Virus record (IMG/VR): IMGVR_UViG_3300027365_000036
Span: 1 to 35,171 of that record
Strand: one strand, 5' to 3'
DNA: 35,171 nt
DNA from: a virus
In this document: piece after piece, positions 2 through 35,171 of the stretch
Layout: every line of letters starts with the position of its first letter
Numbering within the stretch: position 1 is the stretch's first letter
Translations under genes and position numbers: made by a program
Notes under the pieces: model-generated
What the model saw: the letters and a program-made list of their open reading frames with translations, nothing else
Told to the model about the DNA's origin: nothing
Database searches by the model: none

Positions 2-1027
2 TCCAAAAAGGATTTCGCCGGCGAAGGAATCACCTTCGATAAAAATGGCACGCTCATCTCGAGTGCGACCGAAACTCTCGACGCACTGTTTCGTGTCATT
101 GACAAGAAGTACGGTGGCATGACGGAGCGCATGGCGAAGAATACAAATTCGCAGATGGCAACCATCGTCGATTCGTTTGAACAACTAAAGGTCAAGGTCG
201 GCGATATCTTCGGTGCTGGTTTGGCCCTTGTGACGCCACACATCACAAAAGGCCTTGAAGATATCACAAAGTTTTTCGACTCTGTCAAAACAAATGGATC
301 GGCTGCACAGTTCATCCTGATTGGTATCGCCGCCTCACTCGCCGCCATCACTGCAATCCAGATTGTCAATGGCATTGTCACTCTAACCAAAGTCATGAAG
401 GGCCTCGCAAACGGTCTTAAGTTAATCGCACTTGGTGAGGCTTTAGTCCAGGCGCTCGCTGGTCCCGCTGGTATCGCAAAGGTTCTCGCCGGCGTTGTAG
501 CTGCTGGTGCAGCTGCCTATGGAATGAATGCGATTTTTGACACAATGGAGAAAAGTGGTGCAAGCAGTGGAGGCACTGGCGCACCTGCTGGACTGACGCC
601 ACCTACAACGACAGACATCGGCAAGAAGGCTGGAGAAGCTGCTGGTGCTGCAAAGTCGACCGAAGGCAAGGGCGGCGGACTCATCAACACGATGGTCGAC
701 ATCGCGGCATATGCAGCCAGGATGCAAGCGGCATTCGTGGACATGGCGAAGTCAATGGAGGGTCACCTCTTCGAGATCGCGAAGAACACCGGCTCCACTC
801 GAGATCTGCTTGACCTTCGGAAACAGACATTCGGTGGCGGACGCCTGGGCGCCATCGGTGTCACAGCTTCGGAACTCAATGCTGGAAACAATGCGACGAA
901 CCAGGGTGGCGTCGGCATCATTCCACAGACACTGATTCCTGCTTCGACCGACCTCGAGCGAGCGATGCGGAAGATGATGATACAGCAGGGTCGACAGAAT
1001 CTCGTCACTGAGATGAGGAGAATCTAA
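2..1027 (+). CDS. Tape measure protein, variant A (5' truncated by window edge)
   Basis: The reading frame is open from base 2, so this is the C-terminal part of a longer protein. The tape measure sets tail length and is threaded inside the tail tube. Visible are a tape-measure-like segment ending in a KYGGMTERMA motif, a hydrophobic alanine/glycine/isoleucine-rich stretch (translated from about 300-540), a low-complexity linker with TPPTTT, and a C-terminal stretch containing MEGHLFEIAKNTGSTRDLLD. The last 90 or so residues are nearly identical to those of the complete tape measure at 30001-31557, while the part before the TPPTTT linker is not. The stop codon overlaps the next start (TAATG), as in the other copy. 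The first internal ATG (119) is not the true start. The family call is inferred from position and composition as well as the shared C-terminus. Confidence 0.85.
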   Translation, partial: SKKDFAGEGITFDKNGTLISSATETLDALFRVIDKKYGGMTERMAKNTNSQMATIVDSFEQLKVKVGDIFGAGLALVTPHITKGLEDITKFFDSVKTNGSAAQFILIGIAASLAAITAIQIVNGIVTLTKVMKGLANGLKLIALGEALVQALAGPAGIAKVLAGVVAAGAAAYGMNAIFDTMEKSGASSGGTGAPAGLTPPTTTDIGKKAGEAAGAAKSTEGKGGGLINTMVDIAAYAARMQAAFVDMAKSMEGHLFEIAKNTGSTRDLLDLRKQTFGGGRLGAIGVTASELNAGNNATNQGGVGIIPQTLIPASTDLERAMRKMMIQQGRQNLVTEMRRI

Positions 1028-4000
1028 TGGCGACTAACTGGCCACTAAAAGTGGAAGTCGACTGTCCTGAGCCACGTCCTGACCTAGGACGTGTATGTGT
1101 TGGTGCTGACGGAACTTCGTGGGACCGCGCCAACAGCACAGGCTGGTTTGACAGTGTTACGAATACCGCCATGCCGGCGCCTCTCCCTGTCACTGAAGGA
1201 TGGTCCAGCAACTACAGCGGACTCTATGCGCGTGTGCCACGAAGCGCCTACACGCTCGTCACAGGGTCTGTCTGGAAGCAGATGGAAATCAATGCGGCTG
1301 GCGATTATTACCTCACAGCGACGACGCTTGGAACAGCGAATGCGGAATACGTCAAGACTACTGCGTCGTACGTCGCAAATCAGGGCTGGTACATAAGCGC
1401 GTATGTCCCGAACTGGGTAGACAAATCATCACTGCCATTCCTTCGAGTTCAGTGGGGCTATGGATCCGCATCGACAGTCGAGCTCGTGTTCCGTGGTGAT
1501 GGAAGTTGCATCGTTTACAAGGACGGCATTCAGAAGGGTGTCTATGACCAAAACGACACGAACAAGAATCCTGGTCGAAGCGTAACGACTGCGGCGTCTG
1601 TTGGTCAGCGTCAGGTCAGCCTGATGATCATCCCGCTCAAGCGTCGTGAGATGCTCGTGACATCGACCTTCGGTGCTAACTTCTGTCATACCTTCGAGGG
1701 GCTTAACGATGTCGAGGGAAACGTCATCCTGCCGTCTGGTTCATTCGCCTGGAAGGTGCCATACGGTAGACCGACGGTCCAGATTGCACCGGTCGCATAC
1801 GAGACGACTGGCATCTTTTACTCCAAAAACATCACGCTCCGATATCCTCCTCCGATTGGTGCGACTTTCGTACCGCAGATCTGGGGCGATGTCGTTGGCA
1901 CCTCAGCAGGAACTGTCACGACAGCGGTCGCTGTGACGGATGGCTTTAGTCCATACACGCCTGATGGTGTCATCGTCAATCTACGACTGAAGGTGACCAT
2001 CACAACTCCGAGTCCTTACACGCAGACGTATGGTCTGTCGGCAGCGATGGCAAGCAGCACACCAGCGGCGACAACCACATACAATGGTCCAGTCGACATC
2101 ACACAGTACATCGACAACCTCACTCTAAGTGTCGACGAGACATCACGCACTACCCTAAAGATGAGCGCCAGGCGTCAGAAGCTTCTTGATGCTGGCGTGG
2201 CACAGCCACAGATCACAGGTGACCGACCGATTCGCGTTGCGATATCTGACAGCGCTTCACCGACACCGGTCTACACGGACATCTTTCGAGGCACACTGGC
2301 GCCGCCACAGATTCAGTATGAGCAGGGTGATACTAGTCTAAAGTTCAGCACACTTCAGTTTGAAGGTATGGACCGCTCGCGTGACTTCGAGTTGTATTAC
2401 TTCCAGGACGGAATCCTCTACGATGGGTACACCGCAGAGAACGCTATCGGTGACATGATGACCATGGCTGGATATCCTCCGGCCACTTACCTTCTATACA
2501 ATGATGCTGTCGGTATCGAGATCTCACGCAGTCCAGACATCGCTCGCGGATACAGCAGCTTTGTGCCGCAACGCGGCGACACCGTCGCTTCGATGATCAA
2601 TAAGCTGAAGACTGACTACGCTGCGACATTTATCACTGGATGGTCTCCAACCACGAGCGGCTACAAATACCAGTGGTCGAATCCGATTGACCTAAGCTCA
2701 GCGAGCGTGATGACTTTGTACCAAAGTGTTCCGGCAGCAGCTGCTGCTGGCGTCACTGCGGCGCTACAACAGAAGCGCGTGGTCCGGAAGATGTCCGCGC
2801 ATTATGAATCTCCAGAGTGCAATCAGATCACCGTCATCGGCCAGGACCCGCGAACGGGTGACCTGATTTATTCTTATGATGCAGATGATGCATCACAGAC
2901 TGCTGGCACTGCTCCAGCCTCAAGGCCCTACAACTGGAGGGGTCGACCTGTCCCCTATATCTTGTCCGACCCTAGTATCACATCCGGCGCTGTGGCGTAT
3001 CAGGCTATGCTTGCACTCAAAGACCGACTGATGACAGGTCGAATCCTGGTCGAGTGGGAGAGTGACTTTCTTGTCCTGTCTGCGACGAATCGTCCTTTAT
3101 GGGTGCGTGACGTGGTGACCATCATGCAGCCTGATGGCGTGACCATCAAGGGCGTGTATCGCATCATCGCCATTCCTACAATCGAGTTCGTGGTCGAAGC
3201 TGGCGTCCGGCAGTTCCGCCGCGCTGTCTATCGTGGCCTGTACCTGAATGATGGTGGCGAATAGTGCCCTACATCGATGGCACGCGTACATCGACGCTCA
3301 CGATGAGCCATACGCAGAACGTCACGGAGCGCATCTGGAATCCATTCGCGACGCAACCTCTCGAGCCTGACTACGACACGCACTTCACCGACTTTCTGTT
3401 TGGTGGACATCTCGGATTCCTCGGCTCACTGGCGATTGTTTCAACAGTCAATGCACCTTCGCCTGGTGCAACATGGACATGGGAACTTCGTGCGAACCTG
3501 GCGGTCAATAATGGCCACGGAGGAACGAATAGCGGCTACGTCGTTCTCGCATCCGGAACAGAGACAGGCGCCACGACATACAAAGACGTGAGCGTCACAT
3601 GTGCCGGCACGTTTTCCGCATCGGTCTCTACCGACAAACTTTGGGACATCACAGAGACTGCATACAGCTCAAGTGTGGCACCGACAGTGTTCCCTCCACA
3701 AACGGCTTATCGCTGGTATGAGATGACTACATCAGGCGCCACGGCTGCATGTAGTATCACCGCGAATGGCGGAAGCATATCGGTGTCCGCAGCTGCGTCA
3801 TCTAGACGAACAGCAGACTACACCGCGATACTTTCGGCGAATGGATTCTCAAGCGGTGATGTCCGTCATGACTTCGCTGTTTCCCTGGTGAAGGTGAACG
3901 CGGTCGCTGTGCATGACATCACGCACGCTCACACCTTCCACGCACAAAGCGCCACCGAATGGTCCCTGTCTGTTCTTGGAACGACAGACGGCTTCGGTAT

Positions 4001-4641
4001 TGTCTCAACAGCCAGCGCCACCATCAGCACGAGCTCGTGTCTCGACAGGAGTGTGGCTGTCATCGGTCGCACCAGGGCGTGGTCCGCATCGTATCCAGAC
4101 TCGCTCACAGTGACCGTCACAGGCTTCGACGGTTCGTCCAGGGCGATAACTGGAACAGGGTCGATGTCAGGTTCTGATACCTTCGTCGACTATGCGACCA
4201 CGACAGTCCTGACAGATCCGGACTATGGGTCGAACACTCTGACTACATCGCTCGATGATGTTCCTGCAAGCATCTCCTGTGCCATCACTGGCGCGTCACT
4301 TACAGCTGTCGGTGAGGCTAACACTGAGACGCGGTGCATGTTCCGAGGATTCCGGTTCAATGGCTGGAGTCTGGCATATGCCACGACACGAAGCATTGCC
4401 GGCACAGGTAACGACCGACTGTTTGCTCCCTGGGAAGGAATGTCCGGATACCGATATCTCGACATCCAGATCAAGGCGCAAAGCGGGACAGGCGTGGCTG
4501 GTACCTTCGTTCTCACTGACTACCATGGCAACACAAAAACGTGGAATGTCACAGCTGCGACGACGTCGTATCAGACAGTCACCATCGACCTGTGCAGTCC
4601 GGATGCATGGTCTGTGTCTGGTCTCCCGCTAACTGATGGCA
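738..4641. repeat. Divergent long repeat, copy A (partner 31268-35171)
   Basis: Both copies share the tape-measure 3' end, the 745-residue gene and about half of the fibre gene at a constant offset of 30,530 without indels. Scattered substitutions occur, many at third codon positions. Upstream of about 738 the copies are unrelated in sequence. Confidence 0.9.
1027..3264 (+). CDS. Large lectin-like/baseplate tail protein, variant A
   Basis: This 745-residue protein directly follows the tape measure, where siphoviruses encode the distal tail or baseplate-hub proteins. Residues about 40-230 are rich in aromatic and beta-strand patterns (WYISAYVPNW, VELVFRGDGSCIVYKDG) and look like a concanavalin/LamG-type carbohydrate-binding fold. 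About residue 350 onward there is a module beginning DITQYIDNLTLSVDETSRTT, which resembles the N-terminal part of tail-hub proteins. A near-identical copy lies at 31557-33794. By manual comparison about 30 residues differ over 745, without length change. It starts at an ATG overlapping the tape-measure stop and ends beside the GTG start of the next gene. The baseplate role is inferred from position; the sugar-binding reading is tentative. Confidence 0.7.
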   Translation: MATNWPLKVEVDCPEPRPDLGRVCVGADGTSWDRANSTGWFDSVTNTAMPAPLPVTEGWSSNYSGLYARVPRSAYTLVTGSVWKQMEINAAGDYYLTATTLGTANAEYVKTTASYVANQGWYISAYVPNWVDKSSLPFLRVQWGYGSASTVELVFRGDGSCIVYKDGIQKGVYDQNDTNKNPGRSVTTAASVGQRQVSLMIIPLKRREMLVTSTFGANFCHTFEGLNDVEGNVILPSGSFAWKVPYGRPTVQIAPVAYETTGIFYSKNITLRYPPPIGATFVPQIWGDVVGTSAGTVTTAVAVTDGFSPYTPDGVIVNLRLKVTITTPSPYTQTYGLSAAMASSTPAATTTYNGPVDITQYIDNLTLSVDETSRTTLKMSARRQKLLDAGVAQPQITGDRPIRVAISDSASPTPVYTDIFRGTLAPPQIQYEQGDTSLKFSTLQFEGMDRSRDFELYYFQDGILYDGYTAENAIGDMMTMAGYPPATYLLYNDAVGIEISRSPDIARGYSSFVPQRGDTVASMINKLKTDYAATFITGWSPTTSGYKYQWSNPIDLSSASVMTLYQSVPAAAAAGVTAALQQKRVVRKMSAHYESPECNQITVIGQDPRTGDLIYSYDADDASQTAGTAPASRPYNWRGRPVPYILSDPSITSGAVAYQAMLALKDRLMTGRILVEWESDFLVLSATNRPLWVRDVVTIMQPDGVTIKGVYRIIAIPTIEFVVEAGVRQFRRAVYRGLYLNDGGE

Positions 4642-7065: not shown

Positions 7066-7296
7066 TTAGCGCCAGACATGCACCACTTTTTGATCATGCG
7101 CTGGATTCTCTTCGATGCGATAAGACACTACGCCATCGAGCGCGGGGTGAATGTAAATCAGTGCACCGTCCTGGTGTAGGCGCTCGAGGATCTCGTGCTC
7201 GCTCGCTTTGAGCAACCACAGAAGTCCTTCAGGCTTCTCCGCTACGCGAACGGGTCCAGCGGTGATGTCTTTATTGTCCGATTGTTTTCGAGCCAT
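7066..7296 (-). CDS. Small protein of unknown function
   Basis: A 76-residue basic/acidic mixed protein, the last gene of the leftward operon. I do not recognise a family. It has no cysteine pairs, membrane segment or signal peptide. The middle (LLWLLKASEHEILERLHQDG) is predicted amphipathic helix followed by short strands, as in small nucleic-acid-binding or modulator proteins. Its start overlaps the end of the upstream HNH gene by 55 bases, more than the usual 4-base overlaps here. An AAGGGAAAAA ribosome-site-like stretch precedes the ATG and supports it. Confidence 0.55.
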   Translation of the reverse strand: MARKQSDNKDITAGPVRVAEKPEGLLWLLKASEHEILERLHQDGALIYIHPALDGVVSYRIEENPAHDQKVVHVWR

Positions 7297-7901
7297 ATTC
7301 GTTTTTCCCTTATCTTTTCATGATGTTCAAAGTGACATGATCTACAGGCTGTCACCAGATCATCCATGTCCTCTGCGCCGGAGCGATCGTATGTATTATG
7401 GTGACACTCAAGAAACTCAGTCGAACCGCATACTACACAACTGTGTCCATCACGCTCGAACACAGCTGCACGAAGTTTCTTCCATCGTGCTGTGTCCATG
7501 TATCGCCGACGATATTCACGTATCGCGTAATATCGTTTTTCCTTGTAAACCTCGTATAGTCGATTGTATTCAGCATTAAATTGCACCTTTTGTAAACGAC
7601 GTTCGTTCGATGGATTGTCATAAATAGCATCGCATAAAACGTGATCATTAGGTGGCACTACGCCAGCAAGCGTTTTCAGTGCATCGACTTTCTTTAGTGG
7701 TTTGACCAGATTTCCACAAAACGTACATCGAAGACGATAATGGTCGCGTCCAATGGCGTCAGTGATTTTCGTGATTACAGTAGACTCGTGTAAGCATGGG
7801 TCGAGTTGTCGATACTTCGGTTTGTTTTCATCGTCCCACGCCTGCATGTAAACAGCCTCAGTCGGAAGGTCTGCATGTGGCATGAGGTCGCCGAACTTCA
7901 T
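7242..7901 (-). CDS. HNH endonuclease with N-terminal zinc-binding segment
   Basis: This 219-residue protein starts at the ATG at 7901, which overlaps the thyX stop as ATGA. A longer in-frame extension would only read thyX antisense frame and is rejected. The C-terminal half holds a beta-beta-alpha-metal nuclease: CVVCGS, then ECHHNTYDRS, then CRSCHFEHH, that is two zinc-binding CxxC pairs around the HH catalytic region. Upstream, RWKKLRAAVFERDG is the helix typically preceding HNH cores. Near the N-terminus another possible zinc knuckle (CLHE ... CTFCGN) is seen. HNH proteins cut DNA as homing enzymes, packaging factors or recombination nucleases. Placement in an early operon with ERF and ThyX suggests DNA metabolism or a homing origin. 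It resembles the HNH at 16392-16748. Confidence 0.8.
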   Translation of the reverse strand: MKFGDLMPHADLPTEAVYMQAWDDENKPKYRQLDPCLHESTVITKITDAIGRDHYRLRCTFCGNLVKPLKKVDALKTLAGVVPPNDHVLCDAIYDNPSNERRLQKVQFNAEYNRLYEVYKEKRYYAIREYRRRYMDTARWKKLRAAVFERDGHSCVVCGSTEFLECHHNTYDRSGAEDMDDLVTACRSCHFEHHEKIREKRIWLENNRTIKTSPLDPFA

Positions 7902-8530
7902 GACAGCGCCTCCATGATGATCGGCAGATGTTCCAGCATGATGTTCTGGATGCTTTGTGCGATATCTCGATGCTCGAGCTGCGTGTCCTGACGTGTCCGC
8001 AGCTGCACATAATGGATCCACGAACGGATGGTCCCTGACATGTACATCGTGGTCGGAGTGCACAGCGGTAGGACCATGCGAGCAGTCTCCGCAGACATGC
8101 CATGCGCGAGCAAATCGCGATACACGTCGGTCGCAAACTCGATTGATGAACCGACCAAATACAGCGCGTCCTGCTGCTCTTTGGTCAGTTCTTCTATCTT
8201 CGGTAGTGGGAGGCTTGATTGGCGATTGTGAGCGCCAGCGAGGCGCATCTCTGGGACCTCGATGTCCTCGACCACGGTGGCGTATCGTTGGGAAAACTCC
8301 TGGAAGGAGAACGACCGATGTCGGAGCAGCTGCGCGGCGATTGCTCTTGTGGTCTTGACCTCGATGCACATGCTGGCCATTTCAAATATTGACCAGTGTC
8401 CGTGACCGACGCAGTATCTCAATAACCTCGTGACGTCAGGATTGTCCTGGTTTGCTGGGTTCGAGACCCTGGCGCAATACCCGATAACCTTTTCGGCATC
8501 GGGCGTTATCCATACAAGTTTAGTGCTCAT
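7898..8530 (-). CDS. thyX: Flavin-dependent thymidylate synthase ThyX
   Basis: The 210-residue product converts dUMP to dTMP with methylene-tetrahydrofolate and FAD/NADPH, supplying thymidine nucleotide for phage replication. The diagnostic RHR-x7-S motif is complete: RHR at residues 70-72 and Ser at 80 within RHRSFSFQEFSQRY, which binds dUMP and FAD. GHWSIFE (residues 44-50) matches the conserved GHxSxxE segment, and RDLLAHGMSAETARMVLP matches the C-terminal nucleotide-binding region. Length fits the family. It is translationally coupled by ATGA overlaps to the gene before it (8530-9228) and the HNH gene after it. Nothing suggests inactivation. Confidence 0.93.
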   Translation of the reverse strand: MSTKLVWITPDAEKVIGYCARVSNPANQDNPDVTRLLRYCVGHGHWSIFEMASMCIEVKTTRAIAAQLLRHRSFSFQEFSQRYATVVEDIEVPEMRLAGAHNRQSSLPLPKIEELTKEQQDALYLVGSSIEFATDVYRDLLAHGMSAETARMVLPLCTPTTMYMSGTIRSWIHYVQLRTRQDTQLEHRDIAQSIQNIMLEHLPIIMEALS

Positions 8531-10767: not shown

Positions 10768-11028
10768 ATGGACATCAAACTCTCATGCATCGAATGCAAC
10801 CGCCCGAACGTCGTGCCTTATGGCCGTGGACATCGCATCTGTGGCATCTGTTCACAGCGTCAACTCAAGCGCGAGCGCCGCAAGCAGACACAGCGACGCA
10901 TCCAGACACTCGGTGGCTTTGTGCTGGTCGTGATGTGCGTGTGGACAGCGTGTGCAATGGCCAGCGACTGGAACACACCGAACAGTCCAGATCACCGTGC
11001 ACATCAGGCGATGCAAGCTCGTGACTGA
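10768..11028 (+). CDS. Zinc-ribbon protein with single membrane segment
   Basis: The 86-residue product has two cysteine pairs, CIEC (residues 7-10) and CGIC (residues 28-31), forming a likely zinc ribbon. A basic stretch (LKRERRKQTQRR) follows, then a hydrophobic segment (GGFVLVVMCVWTACAMA) that could cross the membrane or act as an anchor, and a short polar tail. The ATG follows AATAGGACTAGAACA, an AGGA ribosome site also seen before other genes here. Its end overlaps the sigma-factor start by 8 bases. Function is unknown. The arrangement suggests a membrane-tethered nucleic-acid- or protein-binding factor. Confidence 0.65.
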   Translation: MDIKLSCIECNRPNVVPYGRGHRICGICSQRQLKRERRKQTQRRIQTLGGFVLVVMCVWTACAMASDWNTPNSPDHRAHQAMQARD

Positions 11029-11929
11029 GGCCATTCGCACCTGGTCACAATACAGGGCCAGCAGACGCGCCGACCCGGATGCACTCCTCCTCGCTCAGGA
11101 GGAGTTTTTCTTAGGTCGTATGGTTCAAGGTGGCAGCGAGCGCGACAAACTTCGAGCTGTCGATGAGTTGTTGAGCCACAACATTCGGATGGTCTCAGCG
11201 ATTGCCAAACGCTACAAGGGACGTGGCTGCGAACACGAGGACATGATGACCGATGGCATGATGGGCCTCCATTACGCTATCCAGCGCTATGACCCGACGA
11301 AGGGTCACCGCTTCTCGACGTACGCCACGAACTGGATTCGACAGGCTATTGGTCGCGGAGTGGAGAATCGTGGTCGTGAGATCCGACTACCGTCGCACGT
11401 CATTGCGAAGATCACTCACATCCGCATCTCGCGCCAGGCGTACGTCCTTAAGCACGGTGAAGCGCCATCGATGCCGGAACTCCTTGTGTGGATACAGTCG
11501 CGCCTCGATGAGTTTCCGAAGTACTTGCGACGACAGATCGAGACACTCGACGCGAAGTACCTGGGCGAGATCATGGCGAACGAAGCGCCGCAGATTCGTT
11601 CACTGGACGAAGTGAACATGTATGGCATGACGCTCGCTGACTTCACAGCATCCGAGGAACCGGCGCCGGACGATTCAATGAACCGCGAAGCACTCTACAC
11701 GCAGCTGTACAAAGTCATGGAACACCTCACCGATCGCGAGCTCGCGTGCATCAAGTTGCGCTATGGCTTCGATGGACTCATCGATGGCCGCTCACTCGAG
11801 GACGTCGGACTGTTGGTCGGATACTCTCGCGAGCGCATCAGACAGATTCAGCATCGAGCATTGGAGAAACTCCGCGTATTACCGGAGGCTGAGATTCTCT
11901 TGGAGACATTGGAGGGCATGGACCTATGA
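11021..11929 (+). CDS. Phage-encoded sigma-70 family RNA polymerase sigma factor
   Basis: This 302-residue protein would redirect host RNA polymerase to phage promoters. It has the main conserved regions: a region 1.2-like segment (LLLAQEEFFLGRMVQGG), region 2 from about residue 52 (NIRMVSAIAKRYKGRG, then RFSTYATNWIRQAIGR near 97-112), a region 3-like helical part, and region 4 with the DNA-reading helix-turn-helix (LEDVGLLVGYSRERIRQIQ, about 260-278). Order and length fit a group 2/3 factor rather than a short ECF type. The GTG at 11021 is chosen because it overlaps the previous stop and keeps region 1.2. An ATG at 10952 is possible but overlaps heavily. It ends in ATGA overlap with the nuclease gene. 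A terminator-like hairpin lies in its early coding sequence. Confidence 0.9.
   Translation: MTEAIRTWSQYRASRRADPDALLLAQEEFFLGRMVQGGSERDKLRAVDELLSHNIRMVSAIAKRYKGRGCEHEDMMTDGMMGLHYAIQRYDPTKGHRFSTYATNWIRQAIGRGVENRGREIRLPSHVIAKITHIRISRQAYVLKHGEAPSMPELLVWIQSRLDEFPKYLRRQIETLDAKYLGEIMANEAPQIRSLDEVNMYGMTLADFTASEEPAPDDSMNREALYTQLYKVMEHLTDRELACIKLRYGFDGLIDGRSLEDVGLLVGYSRERIRQIQHRALEKLRVLPEAEILLETLEGMDL
11083..11109 (+). terminator. Terminator-like hairpin inside the sigma-factor gene
   Basis: ACTCCTCCT (11083-11091), loop CGCTC, AGGAGGAGT (11097-11105), then a run of five T (11105-11109). It is a perfect 9-bp stem with U-tract, the form of an intrinsic terminator, about 20 codons into the gene. The 3' arm is also a strong Shine-Dalgarno-like AGGAGGAG. 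It may attenuate transcription, or be a coincidence of coding for LLLAQEEF. Confidence 0.5.
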
Positions 11930-15543: not shown

Positions 15544-15580
15544 ACCAGGCACACTATCCGAACGGTGTGCCTGGTCTTTT
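15544..15580 (+). terminator. Intrinsic terminator after SSB-like gene
   Basis: ACCAGGCACAC (15544-15554) pairs perfectly with GTGTGCCTGGT (15565-15575) over a 10-base loop, followed by CTTTT. It separates the replication region from the late region that begins at 15599. Confidence 0.85.
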
Positions 15581-15598: not shown

Positions 15599-16171
15599 AT
15601 GTCAAAAGCGACAGCCACTGAGGAGAAGGCTGAACTCCTGGTGCGAATCAAGGAACTTCGAGCTGCTGGTAACAGCATCTCGCGCACCGCGCAGATCATG
15701 TGCATGACACGCGGCACAGTTCAGCGGTGGATCATGGAAGAACGTCCAGAACGAGAGGTCAAGAAAATGGACCCGTATGTTTCGATAGACGAAAAGACCG
15801 CGATAGTGGTCAAGTGGGCCGAACTCATCGCAAGCGGTGAGAGTCGTAGCAGTGCAGCTGCATCGGTTGGTTTTCCCACAATGATGCTCAATCGATGGCT
15901 AATGTCGGAACCGTCACTGCGTATCGAGTTTCAAGAATCCATCGGCAAGAAGCAGAACAACTTCGGTGGCCGCAAATCCTTTGAACAAATCCTTGCAGAT
16001 GTACGCGCAGGACGTCCTGTGTGGCGTGATGGCGGTCGGTTCAAGATACAACTGGTCGAAGCCGCACTCATGCGTTATGAGCTCGATGGCGCGAACGTCT
16101 GGCGGTGCAAGGGCTTCGCGACCTTATCAGGGAACGATGTCCTGGCGCGAGATTGGACGGTGGTGTCATGA
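15599..16171 (+). CDS. HTH protein fused to C-terminal Tad2-like (DUF2829) domain
   Basis: This 190-residue protein starts at ATG 15599, preceded by AAGGGG. Residues about 10-60 form a helix-turn-helix of homeodomain-like type (ISRTAQIMCMTRGTVQRWI). A second similar segment follows at about 70-105 (SRSSAAASVGFPTMMLNRWL). From about residue 126 there is FEQILADVRAGRPVWRDGGR and, at the end, NDVLARDWTVV. This resembles the start (FeeAl...GkxVxR) and end (DvlAeDWxvv) of the DUF2829/Tad2-like family. Tad2 proteins bind TIR-derived nucleotide signals and block Thoeris defence. Fusion to DNA-binding elements is unusual and could mean a ligand-controlled regulator. The gene overlaps the next one by ATGA. 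Confidence 0.62.
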   Translation: MSKATATEEKAELLVRIKELRAAGNSISRTAQIMCMTRGTVQRWIMEERPEREVKKMDPYVSIDEKTAIVVKWAELIASGESRSSAAASVGFPTMMLNRWLMSEPSLRIEFQESIGKKQNNFGGRKSFEQILADVRAGRPVWRDGGRFKIQLVEAALMRYELDGANVWRCKGFATLSGNDVLARDWTVVS

Positions 16172-16413
16172 AGTTCAGTGAAGTGATCGAGCCATTGATG
16201 CATGGCAAACCAGTCACACGCGCATCATGGGAGCATGACGTCTACGTGCGCTACAGTGACTTATACGAGGCGTTCGTGATGCACGCTATCCCTGAACCGA
16301 AGATCATCCAGGGAATCACGATCTATCCGGAGTGGATGCTTGCGGATGATTGGATGTGGGGTGAGTTTCATCCAGTCAAGGACGAAATCAAGTGGACACA
16401 GACAACCTCATAA
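16168..16413 (+). CDS. Tad2-like (DUF2829) small protein
   Basis: The 81-residue product starts at ATG 16168, coupled to the upstream gene by ATGA. It begins MKFSEVIEPLMHGKPVTRAS, with W next, and includes EHDVYVRYSD and PEWMLADDWMWGEF. The family hallmarks (short N-terminal helix, G-K/R-x-V-x-R then W, a strand, and a D-W pair near the C-terminus) match DUF2829/Tad2-like proteins, and the length fits. In known members (Tad2) the protein is a tetramer that sequesters signalling nucleotides. If it does so here it would counter a host TIR-based defence, but some DUF2829 proteins may have other roles. It is the clearest of three such domains in a row. Confidence 0.68.
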   Translation: MKFSEVIEPLMHGKPVTRASWEHDVYVRYSDLYEAFVMHAIPEPKIIQGITIYPEWMLADDWMWGEFHPVKDEIKWTQTTS

Positions 16414-16748
16414 AGACGATCATGGCGAAGCCATGGTCCAGCACCTACAGCCTACTCAAGGCTATCGGAGCGTCCAGCCAGCAGGTCGACGAAGCATGGC
16501 GCGACTATCGTCGCAAGTACATGCGGAGTCAGCGCTGGCAGGACATCCGGACGAAGGCGCTCGAGCGCAGCGGTAGAACATGTGAGCAGTGTGGCCGTCG
16601 ACAGGACGATGGCTACAAGCTCGATGTCCATCACATCACGTACATGCGACTCGGTGGCGAGCAGATGGAAGATGTTCAAGTGCTGTGTTACATGTGCCAC
16701 GGACAGCTGCACTACAGACGCAGAGTGCGCCAGGACAAGGAAGAATAA
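16392..16748 (+). CDS. HNH endonuclease
   Basis: The 118-residue protein holds a compact HNH core: CEQCGR, LDVHHITYMRLGG, then CYMCHGQLH, giving two zinc CxxC pairs and the HH catalytic motif. The N-terminus has the helix RYMRSQRWQDIR-type pattern before it, shared with the reverse-strand HNH at 7242-7901. The GTG at 16392 has AAGGACG upstream and overlaps the preceding gene by 22 bases. ATG 16422 is the other possible start. It sits between two Tad2-like genes and two genes before the small terminase. HNH nucleases next to terminases are known packaging partners in cos-type phages, so it may either assist packaging or be a free-standing mobile nuclease. Confidence 0.83.
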   Translation: MDTDNLIKTIMAKPWSSTYSLLKAIGASSQQVDEAWRDYRRKYMRSQRWQDIRTKALERSGRTCEQCGRRQDDGYKLDVHHITYMRLGGEQMEDVQVLCYMCHGQLHYRRRVRQDKEE

Positions 16749-17101
16749 TGAAGTTTGAACAGGCACTGCCGGCAATGCGGGTAGGTTATGTCATCGGCGT
16801 TCATTATCCAGTCAACGGTGTGACAACGTGGTACAGCAAATGTCCTATACATCCGCATGATGTCTACGTGCATGGATTCTCACGGGTCAAAGATATGATC
16901 GGGCAGTTTCCAAGTTCCGATGTCATGCGAGATGATTGGATTGTAGGTATGCACAGCATGGTCAGAACAAACATCCACGGTGTATGGTTTGACAATAATC
17001 CGCTATGGCTTGACATCGATGGCGAGCCAACCATGGAACAAATCAACGAAGCAGCTCAAACTGCTTTAGCACGAAGAGAGGACAGAAATGGCAAGAGGTA
17101 A
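16748..17101 (+). CDS. Third Tad2-like/DUF2829-like protein (divergent)
   Basis: The 117-residue product starts at ATG 16748, overlapping the HNH stop (TAATG). The first 67 residues have MKFEQALPAMRVGYVIG, a tryptophan and strand segments, and near residue 60 SSDVMRDDWIVG. That gives the same beginning and D-V-x-x-D-W-x-V ending as DUF2829 proteins, with the G-K-x-V-x-R motif weakened (GYVIGV). An extra segment of about 50 residues with helices and acidic residues follows. The relation is more distant than that of the 81-residue neighbour. Its end overlaps the small terminase start by 14 bases. Confidence 0.5.
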   Translation: MKFEQALPAMRVGYVIGVHYPVNGVTTWYSKCPIHPHDVYVHGFSRVKDMIGQFPSSDVMRDDWIVGMHSMVRTNIHGVWFDNNPLWLDIDGEPTMEQINEAAQTALARREDRNGKR

Positions 17102-17477
17102 CACAACAGAACCTGAGATCCTGGCACAGGTCGAATCGGCTTTGATTGCTGGTCAAAGTCCTTCGGTCATTGCACGGTCGTGTGGACTGCCACGCACGAC
17201 CATCATCTCAATCCGTGACAGAATGACGACTCCTGTCGAACAGAGTCGACATGACATCACCTCGACGATTCTCCCGACAAAGTCTCTCGATGATCTTCTG
17301 ACATCTGTGCTCGAGGACAGCCTGAAGGCGCTACAGGCGATAGCACGCACAGCGCAGAGTGAGCGTTACATCAATGGCCAATCAGCTGCCCAAATTGCAG
17401 CTCTCCATGAGCGCATTGCGAACTTCTCGGTTCAACTTCTCTCCGCCGCAGCCGAACCAACTTCGGACAGTAACTAG
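17088..17477 (+). CDS. Small terminase subunit (TerS candidate)
   Basis: The 129-residue protein would recognise the packaging site and load the large subunit. It sits directly before TerL. The N-terminal helix-turn-helix is seen in SPSVIARSCGLPRTTIISIRDRM (residues about 24-46, in two overlapping parts: SPSVIARSCGLPRT and TTIISIRDRM). The rest is helical and suited to oligomerisation (LDDLLTSVLEDSLKALQAIA). Length fits short TerS proteins. The RBS GAGAGGACAGAA precedes ATG 17088. Its 3' end overlaps the TerL 5' end strongly. The assignment rests on position plus HTH, since TerS diverges rapidly. Confidence 0.75.
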   Translation: MARGNTTEPEILAQVESALIAGQSPSVIARSCGLPRTTIISIRDRMTTPVEQSRHDITSTILPTKSLDDLLTSVLEDSLKALQAIARTAQSERYINGQSAAQIAALHERIANFSVQLLSAAAEPTSDSN

Positions 17478-18804
17478 CGCTCAGACTGCTGTCTGTTATC
17501 TCGACTACCTTCGGGACACGCTGCCGAATGGCTGGTCGTACACAGCTCGTCATCTCATCGCCATCGCTTCGCACCTGGACGCAGTCGAGCGCGGTGAGAT
17601 TGACAGACTCGCGATTCACATGCCGCCACGCCACGGTAAGACTGAGACAGTCACGGTGCGATACGGCGCCTATTGCATCGAGCGGGACCCGTACTCGAAC
17701 GTGTTGGTCACTGGCTACAATGAGCGCATCGCGAGACGCTTCTCAAGGAAGTCCAGACAGGTCGTTTCGTCCAGGACTAAACTGTCAAAAGACAACGCGG
17801 CACAAGATGAATGGTCGATGCCTGAAGGAGGAACCTTCATGGCCAGGGGCGTCGGTTCACCTCCAACTGGTGTCGGCTTCAAGCGCATCATCATCGATGA
17901 CCCGATTCGTTCTCGCGAAGATGCTGAGTCGGCGCTGTACCGTGACAAGGCCTGGGACTGGTACACGGACGACCTTTACACGCGCCTCGAACCGAAGGGC
18001 GCTCTCATCATCGTCTCGACCAGGTGGCATCACGACGACATCACTAGCCGTGCGATCTCATCGGAGCCGCATCGATGGACGGTCCTTAACCTCCCGGCAA
18101 TCGCGGAGGAGTCTGACCAGATCGGTCGAATGCCTGGCGAAGCTCTCTGGCCTGAACGCTACGACACGAAGGAACTCGGACGCATCAAGGAGGTCATGGT
18201 CGCAAACTCCGGAGACTATGGCTGGTCGGCTTTGTATCAGCAACGACCGACACCACGCGAGGGTACATTCTTCAAGTCGGACCGCATCACCATCGATGCC
18301 GCCACGCCAAACTGTGCGAAGATGTCCCGTGCCTGGGACCTGGCTGCGACAGCTGGAAATGGTGACTACACTGTCGGCGTGAAAATGGGCCGTGATGCTG
18401 ATGGCCGCATATGGATACTCGACCTCGTTCGCGGTCAGTATGAAACAGATCAGCGAGACAGGACCATCAAACAGACAGCTGCTCTCGATGGTCGCGGTGT
18501 GCGTGTGCGCCTCCCACAGGACCCGGGACAGGCTGGCAAGAGTCAAGCGATGCACATGCTGAGACTTCTCCACGGCAGCGCAGTCAACATCCTCCCTGTC
18601 ACTGGCGCGAAGGATGTCAGGGCTGAACCGTTCGCGAGTCAGGTCGCTGGCGGTAATGTGTACATGGTCCAGGCTGAATGGAATCGAACGCTCCTGGACG
18701 AACTTCGCGTGTTCCCCCTGGGGAAGAACGACGATATCGTCGACGCACTCACGGACGCCTACGACGAGCTCGTCGGTCGTGGTGGTGGCTGGGGTGCAGT
18801 GTAG
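17359..18804 (+). CDS. terL: Large terminase subunit (ATPase/nuclease)
   Basis: The up-to-481-residue motor protein translocates and cuts DNA at the portal. The ATPase has the Walker A-like PPRHGKTE (about residues 89-96), Walker B RIIIDDP (about 176-182), and ALIIVSTRW as the coupling motif. The C-terminal nuclease begins at AWDLAATAGNGDYT (about 325-338), whose Asp residues match the Terminase_6C RNase H fold, and ends with DDIVDALTDAYDE containing a third acidic site. Start is uncertain. GTG 17359 is the longest frame, while ATG 17374 and ATG 17407 are equally possible. All overlap TerS. It is followed by portal after 25 bases. Confidence 0.9.
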   Translation: MSVTSMANQLPKLQLSMSALRTSRFNFSPPQPNQLRTVTSAQTAVCYLDYLRDTLPNGWSYTARHLIAIASHLDAVERGEIDRLAIHMPPRHGKTETVTVRYGAYCIERDPYSNVLVTGYNERIARRFSRKSRQVVSSRTKLSKDNAAQDEWSMPEGGTFMARGVGSPPTGVGFKRIIIDDPIRSREDAESALYRDKAWDWYTDDLYTRLEPKGALIIVSTRWHHDDITSRAISSEPHRWTVLNLPAIAEESDQIGRMPGEALWPERYDTKELGRIKEVMVANSGDYGWSALYQQRPTPREGTFFKSDRITIDAATPNCAKMSRAWDLAATAGNGDYTVGVKMGRDADGRIWILDLVRGQYETDQRDRTIKQTAALDGRGVRVRLPQDPGQAGKSQAMHMLRLLHGSAVNILPVTGAKDVRAEPFASQVAGGNVYMVQAEWNRTLLDELRVFPLGKNDDIVDALTDAYDELVGRGGGWGAV

Positions 18805-30001: not shown

Positions 30002-31557
30002 TGGCGCTTGGCATATTCGACATCATCTTTAAAGTTTCAGGCGCTGGTGATGCTGTCCAGTCGCTGAGGAACATCAAGACAGAAGCGAAGTCGACAGCTG
30101 ATGGTCTTGATAAAACCAAGCAGTCGACTGACGCACTTGGTAAGCAGTTTCAAGGTCTTCTCGCAGGAGCTGCTGTCGCCGGTTTTGCTAAAGGTGCAAT
30201 CGATGCAGCTGTGTCATTCGACTCAATGCAGCGTGCACTGGCCACGACTGTAGGTTCTACTGAAGAACTCAATGCACAGATGGACCGTTTGCGTAAAGTC
30301 GCACTTTCCCCAGGCATTGACCTAAAACAAACAGTCTCTGGTTTTATCAATTTGAAGGCTGCGAAGTTTACGACGAAGGAAGCAGAGGACGGTTTGCGAG
30401 GCATCGGTAATGCTGTCGCATCTGTCGGAGCACCAGCGGAAACTGTTGGTCGTGTTGTCACAGCGATCACACAGATGGCCAATGGACTACAGGTCAATCA
30501 GGAAGAACTTAACCAGTTACGTGAAGCACTGCCAAACTTCGGAGTGATTCTGGAGCGTACGTTCGGAACAACTAACACCGACAAAATCAAAAACATGGGA
30601 TTGTCTGCAAGAGAAGCTGCAAAGCAAATCCTGGTCGGCTTTGGTAAAGGTCCACAGGCAACGGCTGGAATGCAGACAGCGATTGACAACCTGAACGACA
30701 CATTCCAGGCTCTAAAGGAAACAGTCGGTGAATTACTGTTTAAGATGTTTAGTGGGTTTGGTCCTGCATTGACGGGTGCAATGGAAACAGTGACGAAGGC
30801 TATTAGAGGTATCAGCGAACAGGGTTCAGTACTAAACAAAGTTTTCCAGGTGTTCCTGGCGTTTGGACTCGCTGCCGTCGTCGTTGATCTAGCCTTAAAG
30901 TTTGGCATTTTCATCGATGCTGTTATGAAGGCAATCGTGGCAGTTCGCGCTCTTGGAATGACAGGACTTATTGCGAAGGCATTCATATCACCCGAAGCGG
31001 CAATTGCTTCGGCTGTTGCCGCAGCTGGTCTGGCTATTGGTGCGGCTCTTATCTTCGATCAAGTTATGAAGGGTATAAATACCAAGACTAACATCGAAGG
31101 TACTGGCGGAGCAGTAAATGCATTAACGCCTCCAACCACCACAGGCATTGGTAAAGCAGCAGGTGCAGCTGCTAGTACAGGAGATGCTGTCATGTATTCT
31201 GGTTACGGTCTCCTGCAAGGAGTTATTAACGTGTCGAAGTATGCCGAACAAATGATGGCTGCATTTACTGACATGGCGAAGACGATGGAAGGTCACCTCT
31301 TCGAGATTGCGAAGAACACCGGGTCCACTCGAGATCTGCTTGACCTTCGGAAACAGACATTCGGTGGCGGTCGCTTAGGCGCCATCGGTGTGACGGCTTC
31401 GGAACTCAATGCTGGCAACAATGCGACGAACCAGGGTGGCGTCGGCATCATTCCGCAGACACTCATCCCGGCATCGACCGACCTCGAGCGAGCGATGCGG
31501 AAGATGATGATTCAACAGGGTCGACAGAATCTCGTCACTGAGATGAGGAGAATCTAA
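30001..31557 (+). CDS. Tape measure protein (complete), variant B
   Basis: The 518-residue protein begins with MALGIFDIIFKVSGAGDAVQ, with ATG overlapping the chaperone frame's TAA. The first 230 residues have the tape-measure pattern of helices (AATIDAAVSF-type, MQRALATTVGSTEELNAQ, LREALPNFGVILERTFG). Hydrophobic segments at about 280-360 follow (FQVFLAFGLAAVVVDLALKF, AAIASAVAAAGLAIGAAL), then a TPPTTT linker. The last 90 residues are nearly identical to variant A at 738-1027. A length of 518 is short, predicting a short tail, roughly 75-80 nm by the usual rule of 0.15 nm per residue. The stop overlaps the next gene as TAATG. Confidence 0.88.
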   Translation: MALGIFDIIFKVSGAGDAVQSLRNIKTEAKSTADGLDKTKQSTDALGKQFQGLLAGAAVAGFAKGAIDAAVSFDSMQRALATTVGSTEELNAQMDRLRKVALSPGIDLKQTVSGFINLKAAKFTTKEAEDGLRGIGNAVASVGAPAETVGRVVTAITQMANGLQVNQEELNQLREALPNFGVILERTFGTTNTDKIKNMGLSAREAAKQILVGFGKGPQATAGMQTAIDNLNDTFQALKETVGELLFKMFSGFGPALTGAMETVTKAIRGISEQGSVLNKVFQVFLAFGLAAVVVDLALKFGIFIDAVMKAIVAVRALGMTGLIAKAFISPEAAIASAVAAAGLAIGAALIFDQVMKGINTKTNIEGTGGAVNALTPPTTTGIGKAAGAAASTGDAVMYSGYGLLQGVINVSKYAEQMMAAFTDMAKTMEGHLFEIAKNTGSTRDLLDLRKQTFGGGRLGAIGVTASELNAGNNATNQGGVGIIPQTLIPASTDLERAMRKMMIQQGRQNLVTEMRRI

Positions 31558-33794
31558 TGGCGACTAACTGGCCACTAAAAGTAGAAGTCGACTGTCCTGA
31601 GCCACGTCCTGACCTAGGACGGGTATGCGTTGGTGCCGACGGAACTTCGTGGGACCGTGCCAACAGTACAGGCTGGTTTGACTCTGTTACGAATACCGCG
31701 ATGCCGGCACCGCTGCCTGTCACTGAAGGATGGTCCAGCAACTACAGCGGACTCTATGCGCGTGTGCCACGAAGCGCCTACACGCTCGTCACAGGGTCTG
31801 TCTGGAAACAGATGGAAATCAATGCGGCTGGCGATTATTACTTGACAGCGACGACTCTCGGAACCGCGAATGCGGAGTATGTCAAAACGACTGCGTCGTA
31901 CGTCGCGAATCAGGGCTGGTACATTTCCGCCTATGTGCCGAACTGGGTCGACAAAAGTTCACTACCATTCCTTCGAGTGCAGTGGGGCTATGGATCCGCA
32001 TCGACAGTCGAGCTCGTGTTCCGTGGTGATGGAAGTTGCATCGTTTACAAGAACGGTATTCAGAAGGGCGTCTATGACCAAAACGACACGAACAAGAATC
32101 CTGGTCGAAGTGTAACGACGGCGTCGTCTGTTGGTCAGCGTCAGGTCAGCCTGATGATGATTCCATTCAAACGTCGCGAGCTGCTTGTGACGTCTACGTT
32201 CGGTGCTAACTTCTCGCACACCTTCGAGGATCTCAATGATGTCGAAGGCAACGTCATCGTGCCGTCTGGTTCATTTGCCTGGAAGGTTCCCTATGGTCGA
32301 CCGACGGTCCAGATTGCACCGGTCGCATACGAGACGACTGGCATCTTCTACAGCAAGAACATCACACTGCGTTATCCTCCTCCGGTTGGTGCGACCTTTG
32401 TTCCACAGATCTGGGGCGATGTTGTTGGAACCTCAGCAGGAACTGTCACGACAGCGGTCGCTGTGACGGATGGTTTTAGTGCATACACGCCTGATGGTGT
32501 CATTGATACGCTTCGCATTAAGGTCACAATCACGACTCCGAGTCCTTACACTCAGACGTATGGTCTGTCGGCAGCAATGGCAAGCAGCACACCAGCGGCG
32601 ACGACCACATACAATGGTCCAGTCGACATCACACAGTACATCGACAACCTCACCCTAAGTGTCGACGAGACATCACGCACTACCCTAAAGATGAGCGCCA
32701 GGCGTCAGATGCTGATTGATGCTGGCGTGGCACAGCCACAGATCACAGGTGACCGACCGATTCGCGTCGCGATCTCTGACAGCGCTACACCGACACCTGC
32801 ATACACAGACATCTTTCGCGGCACACTGGCGCCTCCACAGATTCAGTATGAGCAGGGTGATACTTCACTAAAGTTTTCGACGCTACAGTTTGAAGGACAG
32901 GACCGTTCGCGTGACTTCGAGTTGTATTACTTCCAGGACGGAATCCTCTACGACGGCTACACCGCACAGAACGCCATCGGTGACATGATGACCATGGCTG
33001 GATATCCTCCGGCAACTTACCTTGCGTACGAAGACGCGGTCGGTATCGAGATCTCACGCAGTCCAGATATCGCCCGGGGATATTCAAACTTTGTGCCGCA
33101 ACGCGGCGACACCGTCGCTTCGATGATCGGCAAGTTAAAGACTGACTACGCTGCGACATTTATCACTGGCTGGTCTCCGACATCAAGCGGCTACAAATAT
33201 CAGTGGTCGAACCCTTTAGACTTATCATCGGCTAGTGTGATGACTTTATACCAAAGTGTTCCGGCAGCAACTGCAGATGGAGTCACTGCTGCGCTCCGCG
33301 AGAAGCGCGTGGTCCGGAAGATGTCCGCTCACTACGAGTCGCCAGAGTGCAATCAGATCACCGTCATCGGCCAGGATCCGCGAACGGGTGACCTGATTTA
33401 TTCTTATGATGCAGATGATGCATCACAGACTGCTGGCACTGCTCCAGCCTCGAGGCCCTACAACTGGAGGGGTCGACCTGTACCATACATCTTGTCCGAC
33501 CCGAGCATCACATCCGGCGCTGTTGCTTATCAGGCAATGGTGGCACTCAAAGATCGACTGATGACAGGTCGAATCCTGATCGAGTGGGAGAGCGACTTTT
33601 TGGTATTGTCTGCGACGAATCGTCCTCTATGGGTACGGGACGTGGTGACCATCATGCAGCCTGACGGTACGACCATTAAGGGCGTGTATCGCATCATCGC
33701 CATTCCTACAATCGAGTTCGTGGTCGAGGCTGGCGTCCGGCAGTTCCGCCGCGCTGTCTATCGTGGCCTATACCTCAACGATGGTGGCGAATAG
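31557..33794 (+). CDS. Large lectin-like/baseplate tail protein, variant B
   Basis: The 745-residue product is the second copy of the 1027-3264 gene at an offset of exactly 30,530 bases. About 30 residues differ by manual count. The substitutions lie mainly after residue 160 and cluster around 200-330 and 380-600 (for example FSAYTPDGVIDTLRIK instead of FSPYTPDGVIVNLRLK). The N-terminal 160 residues are almost unchanged. No indel, frameshift or loss of a stop is seen, so both versions appear functional. The domain description of variant A applies. It is likely an allele in a related strain rather than a paralogue. Confidence 0.7.
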   Translation: MATNWPLKVEVDCPEPRPDLGRVCVGADGTSWDRANSTGWFDSVTNTAMPAPLPVTEGWSSNYSGLYARVPRSAYTLVTGSVWKQMEINAAGDYYLTATTLGTANAEYVKTTASYVANQGWYISAYVPNWVDKSSLPFLRVQWGYGSASTVELVFRGDGSCIVYKNGIQKGVYDQNDTNKNPGRSVTTASSVGQRQVSLMMIPFKRRELLVTSTFGANFSHTFEDLNDVEGNVIVPSGSFAWKVPYGRPTVQIAPVAYETTGIFYSKNITLRYPPPVGATFVPQIWGDVVGTSAGTVTTAVAVTDGFSAYTPDGVIDTLRIKVTITTPSPYTQTYGLSAAMASSTPAATTTYNGPVDITQYIDNLTLSVDETSRTTLKMSARRQMLIDAGVAQPQITGDRPIRVAISDSATPTPAYTDIFRGTLAPPQIQYEQGDTSLKFSTLQFEGQDRSRDFELYYFQDGILYDGYTAQNAIGDMMTMAGYPPATYLAYEDAVGIEISRSPDIARGYSNFVPQRGDTVASMIGKLKTDYAATFITGWSPTSSGYKYQWSNPLDLSSASVMTLYQSVPAATADGVTAALREKRVVRKMSAHYESPECNQITVIGQDPRTGDLIYSYDADDASQTAGTAPASRPYNWRGRPVPYILSDPSITSGAVAYQAMVALKDRLMTGRILIEWESDFLVLSATNRPLWVRDVVTIMQPDGTTIKGVYRIIAIPTIEFVVEAGVRQFRRAVYRGLYLNDGGE

Positions 33795-35171
33795 TGCCAT
33801 ACATCGATGGCACGCGTACATCGACGCTCACGATGTCGCATACGCAGAACATCACGGAGCGCATCTGGAACCCGTTCGCGACGCAACCTCTCGAGCCTGA
33901 CTACGACACGCACTTCACCGACTTCTCTTTTGGCGGACACCTCGGATTCCTTGGCTCACTGGCAATCGTTTCGACGGTCAATGCGCCATCACCTGGCGCA
34001 ACGTGGACATGGGAACTTAGAGCGAATCTGGCTGTCAATAATGGCCACGGAGGAACGAATAGCGGCTACGTGGTTCTCGCATCCGGCACGGAGACAGGCG
34101 CCACGACATACAAAGACGTGAGCGTCACCTGTGCTGGCACCTTCACGGCATCGGTCTCGACAGACAAACTCTGGGACGTCACAGAGACGGCATACAGCTC
34201 GAGTGTGGCGCCAACAGTGTTCCCTCCAAGAACGGCTTATCGCTGGTATGAGATGACTACATCAGGCGCCACGGCTGCATGTAGTATCACCGCGAATGGC
34301 GGATCAGTGAGCGTGTCCGCAGCTGCGACATCAAGGCGAACAGCAGACTACACCGCGATCTTACAGGCGAATGGATTTAGCAGCGGTGATGTCCGTCATG
34401 ACTTCGCTGTTTCCCTAGTGAAGGTGAACGCGGTCGCTGTTCATGACATCGCACACGCTCACACCTTCCACGCTCAAAGCGCCACTGAATGGAGCCTGTC
34501 TGTTCTTGGAACCACAGATGCATTCGGCATTGTTGCAACGGCGAACGCCGCCATCACAACGAGCTCGTGTCTCGACAGGAGTGTGGCTGTCATCGGTCGC
34601 ACCAGAGCGTGGTCCGCATCATACCCAGACTCGCTCACAGTGACCGTCACAGGGTTCGATGGTTCGTCTAGGGCAATAATAGGAACAGGCTCGATGTCTG
34701 GGTCAGATACATTCTCGGACTACTCGACGACGACAGTCTTGATAGATCCGGACTATATGTCGAACGCATTGACTACGTTGCTCGATGATGTTCCTGCGTC
34801 TGTCTCGTGTGCCATCACTGGCGCATCGCTCACAGCTGTCGGTGAGGCGAACACAGAGACGCGGTGCATGTTCCGAGGATTCCGCTTCAATGGCTGGTCA
34901 CTCGCGTATGCCACGACACGAAGTATTGCCGGCACAGGTAACGACAGGCTGTTCGCTCCCTGGGAAGGGATGTCCGGATATCGCTATCTTGACATTCAGA
35001 TCAAGGCGCAAAGCGGGACAGGCGTGGCGGGGACCTTCGTCATTACTGACTACCATGGCAACACAAAAACGTGGAATGTCACAGCTGCGACGACGTCGTA
35101 TCAGACAGTCACCATCGACCTGTGCAGTCCGGATGCATGGTCTGTGTCTGGTCTCCCGCTAACTGATGGCA
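33794..35171 (+). CDS. Tail fibre-like protein, variant B (3' truncated by window end)
   Basis: The second copy of the 3264-6206 gene begins at the GTG overlapping the stop of variant B's lectin-like gene and runs open into the window end. About 459 codons are visible of 980 in the other copy. It is aligned without gaps with differences such as SFGG for LFGG and IVATANAAITTSS for IVSTASATISTSS. The last 127 bases are identical to variant A. Truncation is therefore a contig-end effect, not gene loss. Confidence 0.65.
   Translation, partial: MPYIDGTRTSTLTMSHTQNITERIWNPFATQPLEPDYDTHFTDFSFGGHLGFLGSLAIVSTVNAPSPGATWTWELRANLAVNNGHGGTNSGYVVLASGTETGATTYKDVSVTCAGTFTASVSTDKLWDVTETAYSSSVAPTVFPPRTAYRWYEMTTSGATAACSITANGGSVSVSAAATSRRTADYTAILQANGFSSGDVRHDFAVSLVKVNAVAVHDIAHAHTFHAQSATEWSLSVLGTTDAFGIVATANAAITTSSCLDRSVAVIGRTRAWSASYPDSLTVTVTGFDGSSRAIIGTGSMSGSDTFSDYSTTTVLIDPDYMSNALTTLLDDVPASVSCAITGASLTAVGEANTETRCMFRGFRFNGWSLAYATTRSIAGTGNDRLFAPWEGMSGYRYLDIQIKAQSGTGVAGTFVITDYHGNTKTWNVTAATTSYQTVTIDLCSPDAWSVSGLPLTDG

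Follow-up and report, generated by a model that had tools for sequence, protein, structure and literature searches.

The window considered here is the whole 35,171-nucleotide stretch of viral DNA held as IMG/VR record IMGVR_UViG_3300027365_000036. Positions 15599-17101 contain four genes on the plus strand, referred to here as A, B, HNH, and C. These are followed on the same strand by a helix-turn-helix (HTH) gene in the small-terminase position (TerS) and by the large terminase gene (TerL). Gene A (15599..16171) encodes 190 residues in three parts, namely an HTH domain (residues ~1-50), a small-terminase-like HTH domain (~60-117), and a Tad2-like domain (~123-190; about 15968..16168) recognized by structural match and by hhalign. 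Gene B (16168..16413) encodes a stand-alone short Tad2-like protein of 81 residues. The HNH endonuclease gene (16392..16748; PF01844, E 7e-7) is conserved between B and TerS. Gene C (16748..17101), which is rare and optional, encodes 117 residues, comprising ~67 possibly Tad2-like N-terminal residues and an extra C-terminal segment. TerS (17088..17477) gives weak matches to HTH_23 and phrog_756 and lies immediately 5′ of TerL (17359..18804; PF17289, E 7e-14; phrog_38, E 6e-88). The reading frames of A, B, and C have the positions, strand, and lengths given in the original prediction, which had also described the three genes as consecutive. This is not the case, as the HNH gene separates B from C.

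The stop codon of A overlaps the start codon of B (ATGA), HNH ends and C starts within TAATG, and C in turn overlaps the TerS-position gene. These overlapping stops and starts indicate that the block from A to TerS is one tightly coupled operon.

Upstream of this operon, a terminator-like hairpin (15544..15575, plus strand) is formed by a 12-bp stem and an 8-nt loop, followed by the T-rich tail CTTTTACTTT, and ends 23 nt 5′ of the start of A. The hairpin was found in every relative examined. All 12 pairs form in each of 16 distinct sequences, 4 of the 12 are changed on both sides among these sequences, and the covariation score was reached by none of 500 shuffles. Sliding the pairing partners destroys the pairing. 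The G-U pairs present in the stem favor an RNA structure, and a DNA operator is less likely for this reason. Since the 23-nt gap leaves no obvious room for a promoter, it is a fair inference that the hairpin has a putative role in governing read-through into the operon from A to the terminase.

Tad2-like domains of A and B and a possible one in C

The first 50 residues of A form an HTH (PF13384, E 5e-6). In the AlphaFold2 model of A, the mean pLDDT is 79.9, and the ten-residue blocks from 131 to 190 average about 77-91. The pTM is 0.37, and the arrangement of the domains relative to each other is therefore not predicted. Residues ~123-190 of this model align with SPO1 Tad2 (8wje) over 63 residues, with a Z of 10.1 and an rmsd of 2.0 (VIA-align), and the ten best matches of the model are all Tad2 or AcrIIA7 entries, well above the remainder. 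The domain has the same fold as HgmTad2/AcrIIA7 and SptTad2 (Z 9.6-9.8) and as the hisADPR sponge ModTad2 (9eib; Z 9.6), all within a range of 9-10. In a Foldseek search with the model of A, Tad2 was not among the best 50 matches listed. At the sequence level, PF11195 matches the A-domain family weakly, reaching 14 of 17 members with a best E of 0.0026, and hhalign of the A domain against the B family gave 70% and an E of 4e-5 in a single comparison. It is thus the match of the model to SPO1 Tad2 that identifies A as Tad2-like, the sequence evidence on its own being weak, and the C-terminal third of A is predicted from this model to carry the Tad2 fold.

The middle domain of A (residues 60-117) aligns with the HTH of the bacteriophage Sf6 small terminase gp1 with a Z of 7.0, a weaker match than that of the Tad2 domain, and a PHROG match of A (phrog_1482, E 0.0013) is counted with this likeness. 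However, the resemblance to gp1 is confined to the HTH, the remainder of the small terminase is missing in A, and a separate TerS candidate exists beside A.

Gene B is assigned through its profile match to PF11195 (formerly DUF2829), the family of SPO1 Tad2 (gp34.65). B itself scores 24.8 bits (E 3.3e-5), just below the curated cut-off of 25, and all 24 aligned members of its family match at an E of 1 or less. Scanned separately, the second B-like gene of locus L009 (28.9 bits) and the B gene of L021 (29.9 bits) lie above the cut-off, and B is placed in PF11195 by its sequence through these close relatives. The B family also gives a weak sequence match to HgmTad2/AcrIIA7 and SptTad2. Taken together, the Tad2-like resemblance of A and B exceeds chance. 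Recent duplication into three tandem copies was considered and rejected, as BLASTP among A, B, and C is at chance level except between A and C (E 0.016, single comparison).

The original prediction had assigned all three proteins to the Tad2 (DUF2829) family from a shared pattern. For B the assignment is upheld by the profile and for the end of A by the predicted structure; for C it is unproven, with no family match. The helix and terminal D-W pattern is seen in the C-terminal third of A (128-189) and in B, but the resemblance of C is weak. Likewise, G-x-x-V-x-R is present in A (GRPVWR) and B (GKPVTR), but C has GYVIGV instead. The Tad2-like portion of A was correctly placed at its C-terminal end, although it occupies the last ~67 residues rather than the C-terminal half.

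Gene C has no match in Pfam or PHROG, and hhalign gave 4% for the comparison with B and 28% for that with A. Its model has a mean pLDDT of 47.7, and a structure search with this low-confidence model gave no reliable match. When the HMM scores of C were compared with those of 5000 shuffles of C itself, they were equalled or beaten by 4 with a profile that includes known Tad2, 14 with a combined profile, 27 with an A-only profile, and 208 with a B-only profile, so that C stands above nearly all shuffles only with the two broadest of the four. Homologues of C were found on few contigs, with four distinct sequences. Two of these contigs, L110 (467-1295) and L111 (467-1044), have another terminase type and carry a B-like gene beside, or one gene away from, the C homologue, which suggests that C may travel with Tad2-like genes. 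Descent of C from Tad2 is plausible, and probable at best, in view of the pattern over its N-terminal 67 residues and of the genes in its neighborhood.

Three loops, which connect strands 1 and 2, strands 3 and 4, and strand 4 and helix 3, form the gcADPR pockets of Tad2, and cyclic dinucleotides bind to an inserted segment that lies between strands 2 and 5 (review PMC12043709). GWNGK is found in the first of these loops in SPO1, Mod, and Hgm Tad2, and W-x-[PA]-S-x-x-D in the last. The A domain and B share with SPO1 Tad2 an N-terminal helix, an F...G..V.R start, and an [LM]A.DW end, but GWNGK in the strand 1-2 loop is missing from A, B, and C, which have RDG[AG]R[WF]K, [SC][WF]xxx, and GVHYP at this position, respectively. 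In the last loop, the PSQTD of SPO1 Tad2 is gone from B, where TIYPEW or TLDPES is found, and is partly kept in A (LSG[TN]D) and C (FPSSD), both without the W. ModTad2, in contrast, retains GWNGK and W-x-PS-x-x-D. Aligned to SPO1 and Mod Tad2, A and B are ~20 residues shorter at the cyclic-dinucleotide insertion, and their Tad2-like core has about 65 residues compared with about 85 in Tad2. HgmTad2/AcrIIA7 and SptTad2, with chains of 101-104 residues, differ in the same way, since their cyclic-dinucleotide insertion (PMC12043709) is missing here. The loops of A at the pocket positions carry other residues, which are well conserved (RDG-x-R-x-K and T-x-[ST]-G-x-D), and the loops of B are variable within the family. 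Absence of the Tad2 pocket residues from all three proteins, which the original prediction had named as evidence against its own reading, is largely borne out at the sequence level.

Conservation of the locus among relatives

The order A-B-HNH-TerS was found in 75 distinct loci retrieved with A or B. Of these, 59 are plain, 9 have a second B-like gene, and 4 have T, a divergent Tad2-like candidate, between A and B; of the remaining three loci, one holds a pair of T genes, another combines T with C, and the third is the studied window, which has C. One or two further copies are therefore present in 16 of the 75 loci, either in the A-B slot or following HNH. T was assigned by its motif and one profile match (21.7 bits) and is probably Tad2-like as judged from these features. 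Examples of T, with one or two candidates between A and B, are found in L074 (5493-6001), L071 (5184-5432), and L102 (4554-4784), and a seemingly unrelated reading frame occupies the same slot in L084 and L087.

Relatives were also retrieved by TerL, which avoids the bias of searching with A and B. Where the TerL-retrieved loci extend 2.3 kb or more upstream, all carry A, B, and HNH (38/38), and where they extend 1 kb or more, all carry B and HNH (60/60). None of the relatives sampled in this way falls below 89% identity in TerL, and the term core gene therefore applies to this group and not to phages at large. Within this scope, A and B belong to the core gene set of a single uncultivated phage group. 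Searches of annotated phages by tblastn gave no match for A and B and only chance-level matches for B2 and C, and scans of genome collections with the A domain and with TerL gave no confirmed relative.

The median dN/dS is 0.145 for the A domain, 0.126 for B, and 0.159 for TerS; HNH and ssb have 0.10, and TerL has 0.085. These ratios point to purifying selection on A and B like that on their packaging neighbors, with no sign of an arms race in either gene.

Candidate functions of the Tad2-like proteins

Tad2 homologues are usually interpreted as anti-Thoeris genes, and the original prediction had read the locus as a candidate anti-TIR-defence island. Such an island is unsupported: A and B occur in every relative sampled, they belong to a terminase operon under purifying selection, and the GWNGK and PSQTD motifs and the insertion are missing as described above. 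The loss of the signal-binding motifs indicates that the fold probably serves a use other than anti-Thoeris activity.

The reading preferred here, held tentatively and at somewhat short of even confidence, is that A is a core protein which binds DNA and contains a Tad2-fold domain for ligand binding or oligomerization, with stand-alone paralogues beside it. A would bind DNA, and its Tad2-like domain would act as an oligomerization and/or small-ligand module that adjusts this binding. In this way, A could control the switch into packaging or late genes, or participate in packaging, and B and the optional paralogues may be stand-alone versions that share the ligand of A or assemble with it. The invariable placement of A and B between the hairpin and the HNH and terminase genes is consistent with such a role. 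However, the optional paralogues differ from one another and resemble accessory genes. In addition, every characterized Tad2-fold protein is, to our knowledge, a signal sponge or an anti-CRISPR, and the fold by itself therefore favors counter-defence.

The main rival, ranked behind a regulator and ahead of a packaging component, is that these proteins are divergent sponges, perhaps for another ligand. B, the extra copies, and perhaps C would sequester immune nucleotide signals, with A combining a sponge with its own regulator, and the copies would differ since each binds a different signal. This is a real possibility given the Tad2 fold and the PF11195 membership, and the distinct extra paralogues and varied proteins in the A-B slot suggest arms-race turnover. 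C also lies near a B-like gene in the two contigs with a different terminase. Yet GWNGK is lost from all three proteins and PSQTD from B, and the shortened core lacks the region tied to cyclic-dinucleotide binding (PMC12043709). The universal presence of A and B in the terminase operon of the group and their purifying selection also argue against sponges.

It is rather improbable that A and B belong to the packaging machine itself, with A as an accessory DNA-recognition protein resembling a small terminase, and with Tad2-like domains that serve only to form the ring or a bridge to HNH or TerS. The Sf6-like middle domain and phrog_1482 match of A and its fixed position beside HNH, TerS, and TerL would suit this role, but the TerS position is already held by a separate HTH gene, and a Z of about 7 may reflect an arrangement common among small helical domains. 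Moreover, we know of no Tad2-fold packaging protein. An anti-CRISPR of the AcrIIA7 kind is very improbable, for although AcrIIA7 entries have the same fold as the A domain, no sequence feature indicates a Cas9 target and anti-CRISPR genes do not usually occupy a core position.

This phage group has a Tad2 fold that is fixed in the terminase operon, fused to two HTH domains in A as an invariable member, and devoid of the known pocket motifs, which distinguishes A from SPO1 Tad2. It provides a concrete case against the automatic annotation of Tad2 homologues, and a testable lead to the origin of immune-signal sponges or to other uses of the fold. One such lead, put forward as a doubtful conjecture, is that in this HTH-HTH-Tad2 core protein the Tad2 fold senses a ligand or mediates oligomerization, with stand-alone paralogues as an expandable set, so that Tad2 sponges may be related by descent to phage regulators that respond to signals.

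Other features of the window were also observed. A 375-residue protein encoded at 7242-8369 on the minus strand has a C-terminal HNH domain and also matches the profile of the HNH gene in the terminase operon. At 10952-11929, the window encodes a phage sigma factor of the sigma-70 family, with both regions 2 and 4 (PF04542 and PF04545). The ends of the record, 740-4641 and 31270-35171, repeat each other over 3.9 kb at 90.6% identity with a spacing of 30530, which probably reflects a circular or permuted genome of ~30.5 kb whose assembly ran into a second strain.
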